This document shows positions 44,691-47,068 of a stretch of DNA of 64,000 bases, piece after piece; the first letter of the stretch is position 1, and every line of letters begins with the position of its first letter. The position numbers were made by a program, and so were the translations under genes. Origin of the DNA: Candidatus Nitrospira neomarina (lineage in GTDB: Bacteria > Nitrospirota > Nitrospiria > Nitrospirales > UBA8639); contig NZ_CP116968.1 in NCBI RefSeq assembly GCF_032051675.1, positions 1,488,001 through 1,552,000 on the forward strand. The letters run 5' to 3'. Under the pieces are notes generated by a model. The model worked only from the letters and a program-made list of their open reading frames with translations, was not told the DNA's origin and did no database searches.

Positions 44691-45132
44691 GTTCTCCTCC
44701 ATCACTAAAATCGCGCAACAAACATCATTCTCGATAGATTCTCTGTTCGTTCTGAAAATTTACGATGATTCACTAGACCCATTTTCAAGATTGTCAGATT
44801 TTTAATCAGTACGAGAATCTCGAAATCCCTCTGTTTCCAATCACTATTGCATGATATACGGCTGACCTAATCTTTGATGTCCCGAAACCACGACACAATG
44901 CTGGATAAAGGCCCCTTGTTATTTAGAAAAACACAAAAAGTCTACCACCAGACTCATCCCTACAACTCAAGACTCCCATAAACGCCTTCCATTGAACAAT
45001 CTAAAACGTCAATGGCATGCACTTTGCGAAAGACCGTGTCCAAAAAGCATTTAATTAAACCTGGCTTCTCAATATCTAAACAAAAAATAATGAGGGAAAA
45101 ATTCTAAACCCATTAAGCATTAAAGGAATAAA
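44691..45132. other. Gene-free interval between divergent genes
   Basis: About 440 AT-rich bases separating two divergent exported proteins. It presumably holds both promoters; I could not locate convincing -35/-10 pairs. No hairpin with T-tract is seen. Confidence 0.45.
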
Positions 45133-45702
45133 ATGAAACGAAACCAAACACTGTTATCTTGTGTCCTCATCATTGGTATAGAAACCTTCTCCATATGCTT
45201 ACTCCCCGTTTCACCAACTCCTGCAAATTCGGCCGATATCGCATTAGTTCTTTCGTCTTCTTCGCCTGTATCACCATTGCCTCCGGAAATGGTCCATTGG
45301 CCGGAATCTAGCCACAGCGACGACACCTTAGCGGCCCTCACCATCTATCTGGAAGCCGGCGGTGAAAGTTTTGCTGGAAAGTTAGCTGTCGCGGCCGTCA
45401 TTCGGAACCGAATGGCTCTCAAATACCATAGCGATGGCACGGTCAAGGGCACGGTTCTTCGGGCCAAACAGTTTGAACCATGGATGGGACGAAATCCAGA
45501 AGAAATGGAATTTGATCAAACCAATCGAAACATGAAAGATAGTTTATTAGCCTGGAAGGTTGTACAAGACGGGCGAAAGATGGTGAATGGGGCTGTACTG
45601 TTTTATAATCCCCAACTGGTCAAAACTCCCCGGTGGGCTCAGATCAACCGTAAAGTGGCAAAAATTGGCGGACACGAATTTTTTAATAAGCACACCATTT
45701 AA
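45133..45702 (+). CDS. SleB-type cell wall hydrolase
   Basis: A 189-residue protein with an N-terminal signal or anchor segment (LLSCVLIIGIETFSICLLP). The catalytic domain pattern is Hydrolase_2: LTIYLEAGGESFAGKLAVAAVIRNRM with the candidate catalytic Glu, then FEPWMG, followed by LLAWKVVQDGRKMVNGAVLFYNP. It cleaves peptidoglycan glycan strands in spore cortex lytic enzymes and relatives; in this non-spore-forming lineage a cell-wall remodelling role is likely. AAAGGAA precedes the ATG. Confidence 0.85.
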   Translation: MKRNQTLLSCVLIIGIETFSICLLPVSPTPANSADIALVLSSSSPVSPLPPEMVHWPESSHSDDTLAALTIYLEAGGESFAGKLAVAAVIRNRMALKYHSDGTVKGTVLRAKQFEPWMGRNPEEMEFDQTNRNMKDSLLAWKVVQDGRKMVNGAVLFYNPQLVKTPRWAQINRKVAKIGGHEFFNKHTI

Positions 45703-45712
45703 TCTAGTTTAA

Positions 45713-46591
45713 TTAGTCACGGACCACGGGTGTTTTTCGCAAATTCCTGGGTCGGGGCGCACTGGGTCCCCCATCCTCTATACGTTTCAACTCTATGCGT
45801 AGATGTCGAATGGCACCGGAATGCACCCGGCAGACCCCAGATTCGGTCAGACCCATTTGCCGACCAATTTCTTTCATCGTCAATCCCGCATGATAATACG
45901 ATTGAAGCACCTCTTGCTGGCGTGCCGATAATGTCTGGAGCGCCGCTGACAGGGCCGCTTTCATTTCTGCATCCGCACAGGCCACAAAAGGGTCCAGATG
46001 GTTAACGTCCGGCAAAACATCACGAAGGGTGCATTCATCTTCCCCCTGCCCAACCGGCTCATCCAGACTAATTAACCGGGGATCACACCCGCCCACTCCT
46101 TCTATCTCCTCAATGGGGACGCCCAACAGTGTGGCCAATTCCTGTGTGGTCGGTGGCACCCCATTTTTCTGAAGATGCTCTTCAACTATTTGTCGCACTT
46201 GATCTCGACGAAATCGAACAGACCGAGGAACCCAATCCATAGACCGAATTTCATCTAACATCATGCCACGAATACGATATTCGGCAAATGTGCGAAATTT
46301 AATATCACGTGTCGGATCATAGCGCTTCAACGCCGACAACAGCCCCATAGCCCCTGCGCTGGTCAAATCCTCGACATCCAGGGAAAAGGGATTTCTGAAT
46401 GCCATAATTCCGGCCATCCGACGAATGATCGGGAGAAACTCTAATAAAATCCGGGTAACATATTCCTGATCGAGCTGGCCCTGTGCCTCCGTATGTTCTA
46501 CTTTTTTCGGACTAACCGAACAGAGGTGAGATGTGTCGGGTTCTTTGATACCAACTGTTGTCTCCGTGGAATGTTGTGCGTCTTCGTCCAT
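45713..46591 (-). CDS. fliA: FliA/WhiG-family RNA polymerase sigma factor
   Basis: A 292-residue sigma factor. Region 2 has FRTFAEYRIRGMMLDEIRSMDW and region 4 has SARQQEVLQSYYHAGLTMKEIGRQMGLTESGVCRVHSG, the DNA-binding helix-turn-helix. FliA-type sigma factors direct flagellar and chemotaxis transcription; the symbol is tentative because no flagellar genes are in this window. The ATG at 46591 has GGAAAGG about eight bases upstream; the frame is open further to 46660, but that lies over the riboswitch expression platform. A c-di-GMP riboswitch precedes it. Confidence 0.9.
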   Translation of the reverse strand: MDEDAQHSTETTVGIKEPDTSHLCSVSPKKVEHTEAQGQLDQEYVTRILLEFLPIIRRMAGIMAFRNPFSLDVEDLTSAGAMGLLSALKRYDPTRDIKFRTFAEYRIRGMMLDEIRSMDWVPRSVRFRRDQVRQIVEEHLQKNGVPPTTQELATLLGVPIEEIEGVGGCDPRLISLDEPVGQGEDECTLRDVLPDVNHLDPFVACADAEMKAALSAALQTLSARQQEVLQSYYHAGLTMKEIGRQMGLTESGVCRVHSGAIRHLRIELKRIEDGGPSAPRPRNLRKTPVVRD

Positions 46592-46614: not shown

Positions 46615-46646
46615 AAAAAAAAGCGCCCCTTCCAGGAAAGGGGCGC
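46615..46646 (-). terminator. Intrinsic terminator in the riboswitch expression platform
   Basis: GCGCCCCTT pairs with AAGGGGCGC around a TCCTGG loop (minus strand), and eight T residues follow. It is 24 bases upstream of the sigma factor start codon and 22 bases past the aptamer. Confidence 0.93.
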
Positions 46647-46667
46647 ATGAACGAACGCATGGATCTA

Positions 46668-46770
46668 CCAACACAGTTCGGTAACCAGACGAACCCTGCA
46701 ACGACAACGTTCTCAGGGTTTCTTGGCTTTGCGCCCTACCCTCACGGATAGTTTGCCCTTGTCACCTGTT
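46668..46770 (-). promoter_or_regulatory. c-di-GMP-I (GEMM) riboswitch
   Basis: On the minus strand the sequence runs AAGGGCAAAC, then a stem TATCC/GGGTA capped by a GTGA tetraloop, then GGGCGCAAAGCC, then AACCCTG...CAGGGTT, then CTGGTTACCGA. These are the conserved GEMM-I elements: the GGGCAAAC segment, the GNRA tetraloop, the GCAAAGCC segment, the P3 stem and the final GGTTACC. P1 is formed by AACAGGTGAC and GTTACCGAACTGTGTT, approximately. Seven aptamer bases (GGGCGCA, 46736-46730) are complementary to TGCGCCC at the 5' arm of the following terminator (46647-46641), so the unfolded aptamer could prevent termination. This predicts that c-di-GMP turns the sigma factor off. Confidence 0.92.
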
Positions 46771-47068
46771 GAATTCGTTAGTCGATAATTACAACCTCAT
46801 GTAAGTGATGGTTTTTTGAAATTTTCCGATTAACTGTCTGTCTTGGATCTTCGGATTCTCCCCTACTCTTCGACCTCTATCTCTTTGGAAATGTTATCGG
46901 ATCCGAGTCAAGGGGAATTAAGAAAATCCCTTGCGTGTTTATGAAAAAACTACGCAAATTCATATATTGCACAGTATCAAAAACCAATACGAATGGTGAT
47001 CAGGAACAGATGGTCAAAATCTCATTCACACAATCCCTCCAGTGCCCTTCATGACAATCGCGGATCCT
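46771..47068. other. Leader and promoter region of the sigma factor gene
   Basis: About 300 bases between lptG and the riboswitch. It should contain the promoter for the riboswitch transcript. A TTGACT at about 46905-46910 (minus strand) is a possible -35, but no good -10 follows at standard spacing, so the promoter class is unresolved. Confidence 0.4.

Follow-up and report, generated by a model that had tools for sequence, protein, structure and literature searches.

What does a cyclic di-GMP (c-di-GMP) riboswitch control when it precedes a single sigma factor gene, and does its ligand turn that gene on or off? The question is raised by the minus strand of a 64,000-nucleotide stretch of the Candidatus Nitrospira neomarina genome (contig NZ_CP116968.1, positions 1,488,001 to 1,552,000; hereafter the window), where a first-pass annotation had proposed a c-di-GMP riboswitch upstream of a FliA-type sigma factor. 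The element is very probably a c-di-GMP class I riboswitch whose ligand turns off transcription of the gene for a second FliA/WhiG-type sigma factor in the Nitrospirales. The features of the leader and gene, in order of transcription, are as follows.

46768-46802, minus strand: probable promoter, a GAGG-N8-(TANNAT-like)AA or GAGG-N8-TANNATAA-like block kept in the genus and abutting the aptamer (upstream regions compared by eye)
46677-46767, minus strand: c-di-GMP-I (GEMM-I) riboswitch aptamer (Rfam RF01051), with P1 GGTGAC/GTTACC, P2 CTATCC-GTGA-GGGTAG, and P3
46730-46736, minus strand: aptamer-side antiterminator strand GGGCGCA, comprising the last base of P2, the junction, a GC pair, and the A that corresponds to Vc2 A47
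46653-46659, minus strand: TGCGTTC, also complementary to the aptamer strand, though more weakly (with G-U pairs)
46641-46647, minus strand: TGCGCCC, consisting of the terminator 5' arm and one additional base, able to pair with the aptamer strand or, alternatively, with the 3' arm of the terminator
46615-46646, minus strand: intrinsic terminator, with stem GCGCCCCTTT/GAAGGGGCGC, loop CCTG, and T8
45713-46591, minus strand: FliA/WhiG-family sigma factor gene (292 aa, second paralogue; TIGR02479 and Pfam sigma-70 regions 2, 3, and 4), with start ATG at 46591 and recognition helix TESGVCRVH

Identity of the aptamer and its ligand

The first-pass annotation had called for a GEMM-I covariance search, and in an Rfam search of the window the c-di-GMP-I model (RF01051) matched 46677-46767 on the minus strand with 59.6 bits (gathering score 35; E = 3.9e-9), spanning model positions 1-87 of 87. 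The only other gathering-level Rfam match within the window was a tRNA. All of the conserved elements that had been listed for this aptamer class were found, namely GGGCAAAC, a GNRA (GUGA) loop, GCAAAGCC, P3, and GGTTACC, and the P2 tetraloop keeps the GNRA form among the orthologues (GUAA, GCGA, GAAA, GAGA, and GCAA). The ligand-contact positions of the Vibrio cholerae Vc2 and Vc1 GEMM-I aptamers (G20, A47, and C92; PMC4744006) are the same here, corresponding to G 46757 (Vc2 G20), A 46730 (A47), and the CC at 46681-46680 of GGTTACC (C92).

These features point to c-di-GMP as the ligand, and it is most improbable that the aptamer binds another cyclic dinucleotide (cGAMP) or belongs to the c-di-GMP-I-GGC variant. 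The variant model (RF03167) scored 57.8 bits here, below its gathering score of 59, and was barely above that threshold in some relatives, which favors the variant reading; however, the RF03167 consensus is GCGAA, compared to GCAAA in all leaders examined in this study (G versus A at position 47). In addition, cGAMP-type aptamers have an A at the position equivalent to Vc2 G20, where the base is a G here.

Architecture of the leader

The terminator that had been placed just before the sigma factor start is present, with a stem (46646-46623) of 10 pairs, a CCTG loop, and a predicted energy of -18.0 kcal/mol, followed by T8 at 46622-46615, upstream of the ATG at 46591. The complementarity reported earlier between aptamer and terminator was also recovered, GGGCGCA lying at 46736-46730 and TGCGCCC at 46647-46641, and the pairing of TGCGCCC with the aptamer strand and its pairing within the terminator are mutually exclusive. 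A 7-base Watson-Crick match between the aptamer and the terminator 5' arm was obtained with 5.5% of shuffled arms (single sequence); the complement alone is therefore not compelling, and its support comes from conservation across genera. The weaker complement TGCGTTC (46653-46659) lies just upstream of the terminator, is partly kept in genus g1, and perhaps acts as an early antiterminator.

On the strand of the probable promoter (46768-46802), no match to the sigma-70 consensus was found. Two further candidates were set aside. A pairing of the P1 strand GGTGAC with a GTCACC located 3' of the T-run is not kept in other orthologues, and an in-frame start at ATG 46660 (315 aa) would run through the terminator, whose T-run varies in length between orthologues, while the ATG at 46591 is the one that the genus keeps.

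Conservation of the riboswitch among the Nitrospirales

The relatives compared were Nitrospirales metagenome-assembled genomes (MAGs). Of the 48 genomes of the family, 30, representing seven genera, contain an orthologue of the sigma factor, and 28 of these 30 have the aptamer upstream, in six of the seven genera (labeled here g1, g3, g5, g7, g8, and g9). Of the two exceptions, L034 (g6) has the sigma factor without an aptamer, and in L022 the contig ends inside the gene. The leaders were compared in detail in 29 sequences (the 28 plus one further MAG record, L044), of which 28 contain the terminator; L032 (g7) keeps the aptamer without it.

The aptamer strand is GGGCGCA in g1, g3, g8, and g9 and GGACGCA in g5. 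The 5' arm of the terminator reads TGCGCCC in the former set (or TGTGCCC and TATGCCC in g8), and in g5 it reads AGCGTTC or AGCGTCC (AGCGCTC in L029). Five to seven of the seven pairs with the aptamer strand are kept in all 28 terminator-bearing leaders, giving 189 of 196 pair cells, a total equaled in 4 of 10,000 permutations in a test that ignores kinship. Pair 3 is G-C in 23 leaders, A-U in 4, and A-C in 1, amounting to one compensatory double change between genera (G-C to A-U, seen in four of the five leaders from g5), and this one change makes up essentially all of the covariation. The T at 46647 is invariant in all 23 leaders outside g5; it is unpaired in nearly all of their terminators and paired in the antiterminator.

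Proposed mechanism and alternative explanations

In the absence of ligand, GGGCGCA would pair with TGCGCCC, the terminator would be blocked, and the sigma factor gene would be transcribed. With c-di-GMP bound, GGGCGCA would be locked in the aptamer core, allowing the terminator to form and stopping sigma factor synthesis. Because A 46730 and the GC pair serve both the antiterminator and the ligand-binding core, the ligand should favor termination, and the predicted direction of control is OFF. The antiterminator strand is common to the ligand-binding core, and its pairing is conserved in 28 of 28 terminator-bearing leaders, with one compensatory change among them. On structural and comparative grounds, the aptamer class and the OFF logic of the first-pass annotation are well supported by the contact bases, by an antiterminator within the aptamer core that includes the A47 equivalent, by one compensatory change, and by a leader kept in six genera.

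Folding was performed with ViennaRNA, which models neither tertiary contacts nor ligand; when the transcript was truncated immediately downstream of the 5' arm, 26 of 28 leaders favored the antiterminator ensemble over that of the aptamer core, by 0.7-4.2 kcal/mol, while L029 and L030 did not fit the antiterminator energetically. A gap of this size would be small enough to be reversed by tight ligand binding. Since the terminator hairpin is very stable once its 3' arm is present (-18.0 kcal/mol), the switch would have to be kinetic.

There are two other potential explanations for this arrangement. Class I riboswitches have been described in both directions, as the seven functional C. difficile examples are OFF switches operating through termination and B. 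thuringiensis Bc2 is an ON switch (PMC6366702), and an ON switch, in which the ligand-bound aptamer lets transcription pass the terminator, could be imagined here by analogy with Bc2. It is nevertheless highly unlikely at this locus, as the antiterminator strands identified by folding come from within the aptamer, so that ligand binding should remove the antiterminator, and the linker between aptamer and terminator holds no complement of TGCGCCC. It is also possible, with a probability that we consider low, that the aptamer is real and the 7-base complement incidental, with a terminator that is constitutive or control that is mainly translational. Several observations agree with this: the ribosome-binding site lies in a GGTC...GGCC hairpin, the complement would arise by chance about 5% of the time in one sequence, L032 lacks the terminator, and no obvious terminator was seen by eye in the other five c-di-GMP-I leaders of the genome. 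Against it stand the persistence of the complement in 28 leaders, the compensatory G-C to A-U change, and the invariance of a T that is unpaired in most terminators, and a terminating OFF switch is retained as the preferred reading.

The downstream gene is a paralogue of flagellar FliA

The sigma factor was correctly recognized in the first-pass annotation as FliA-type, scoring 192.7 bits against the TIGR02479 (FliA_WhiG) cut-off of 189.6; against the NF005413 FliA model it scored 186.7, below the cut-off of 201. Its best solved-structure matches were the sigma chains of 6pfv and 6pfj. The genome (4.8 Mb, one contig) contains a second FliA/WhiG-family gene at G000:C1:716.4-717.2 kb, which sits in a full flagellar cluster, with chemotaxis-like genes after it (identities in this cluster, apart from the sigma factor gene itself, were read from translations). 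In a maximum-likelihood tree, the window sigma factor and its orthologues fall on one side (support 100/100) and the flagellar FliA proteins on the other. Region 2 is alike between the two groups in the alignment, while the region 4 recognition helix changes from TESRxCQxH to TESGxCRxH (R to G and Q to R) in all aligned orthologues that cover it. Given two changed residues in the -35 recognition helix, -35 recognition by the window sigma factor likely differs from that of flagellar FliA. With its separate clade, its TESGVCRVH helix, and its lack of flagellar neighbors, the window gene does not behave as the flagellar FliA orthologue.

These results bear on the earlier suggestion that the switch matches repression of motility in sessile cells, which was not supported. 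What c-di-GMP shuts off is a question separable from how it does so, and it is unlikely that the target is the flagellar sigma factor and hence motility. The membership of the protein in the FliA/WhiG family is consistent with a motility target, as is the class I OFF riboswitch that precedes the C. difficile flgB operon, which contains sigD (PMC3649979). However, flagellar FliA is here a different gene, and none of the six c-di-GMP-I matches in the genome lies near it; the riboswitch-controlled paralogue belongs to another clade, has altered -35 helix residues, and adjoins no flagellar gene. The window sigma factor probably transcribes something other than the main flagellar regulon. A genome scan for sigma-28 promoters (TAAA-N14-16-GCCGATAA) returned 4 matches compared to 3 in a reversed control and revealed no regulon.

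In every riboswitch genus a gene for a cell-wall hydrolase lies close to the sigma factor gene, which adjoins lptG in three of them (g1, g5, and g9). Control of the neighboring hydrolase by the sigma factor was considered and set aside, a conserved sigma-54-type site being found upstream of that gene instead. This -24/-12 site, TGGCATGCACTTTGC, lies at 45013-45027 on the plus strand upstream of the hydrolase gene (45133-45702), and similar sites occur in most of the orthologous hydrolase loci inspected.

A possible second sigma-28 system

Two FlgM anti-sigma genes were identified in the genome, one in the flagellar cluster and one beside a gene for a PilZ-domain protein (L138:6214-7433; G000:C1, approximately 1023.2-1024.4 kb). 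Synteny at the latter locus is preserved among the relatives examined, which include several genera with the riboswitch-controlled sigma factor, and the second FlgM is present beside PilZ in many genomes that have an orthologue of the window sigma factor; in G024 some 6 kb separate the locus from that orthologue. This pattern suggests that the second FlgM may be the dedicated anti-sigma factor of the window sigma factor, although the co-occurrence may simply track whether a genome encodes flagella. Inspection of the region upstream of the second FlgM showed no conserved promoter resembling the sigma-28 type. As a tentative and rather doubtful extension, the Nitrospirales could possess a c-di-GMP-gated second sigma-28 system, in which a FliA paralogue with new -35 specificity and its own anti-sigma factor (the second FlgM beside PilZ) would direct a program for surface life or dispersal apart from the flagellar regulon.

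Comparison with known systems and other c-di-GMP elements in the genome

In Streptomyces, c-di-GMP restrains the FliA/WhiG-family sigma factor WhiG through an anti-sigma protein, RsiG; the restraint proposed here likewise acts on a member of this family, via the mRNA leader. The 6pfv and 6pfj matches noted above are a further resemblance to this system. Both the riboswitch class and its logic are already known, and the nearest precedent is the C. difficile element Cd1 (Cdi1_3) before the flgB operon, whose GEMM-I aptamer, premature termination at high c-di-GMP, and operon with a sigma-28-type factor (SigD) (PMC6366702, PMC3649979) parallel the aptamer, the predicted termination, and the sigma factor target of the present leader. 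The target of Cd1 is, however, a whole early flagellar operon, whereas here a lone sigma factor gene would be controlled, far from the flagellar genes, and the standard flagellar fliA is present in addition. The Vibrio riboswitches are not termination-based (PMC6366702), unlike the switch proposed here. The target is unusual and conserved, and no paper on the combination of a c-di-GMP-I riboswitch with a second FliA-type sigma factor was found in the literature collection searched. If this reading is right, a single RNA element would give c-di-GMP direct control over a whole sigma factor regulon in relatives of the Nitrospira nitrite oxidizers, a group in which regulation has been little studied. 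The switch is conserved across six genera, and a handful of point mutants would suffice to probe its simple pairing.

Seven GGDEF matches, in line with the preferred reading, and six c-di-GMP-I aptamers were identified in the genome. Four of the other five aptamers precede Fn3 or Ig-like proteins, three of which are large with Ig-like or FG-GAP repeats, and the fifth (around G000:C1:4528944; L004/L123) precedes a short pilin-like ORF and TadE-like genes, an apparent pilin/Tad locus judged from translation only. A tandem duplication at L122:7368-12224 (G000:C1, 3740.4-3745.2 kb) contains a pair of nearly identical c-di-GMP-I aptamers, each preceding an Fn3 protein, and the two proteins have the same N-terminal sequence and different C-terminal repeats.
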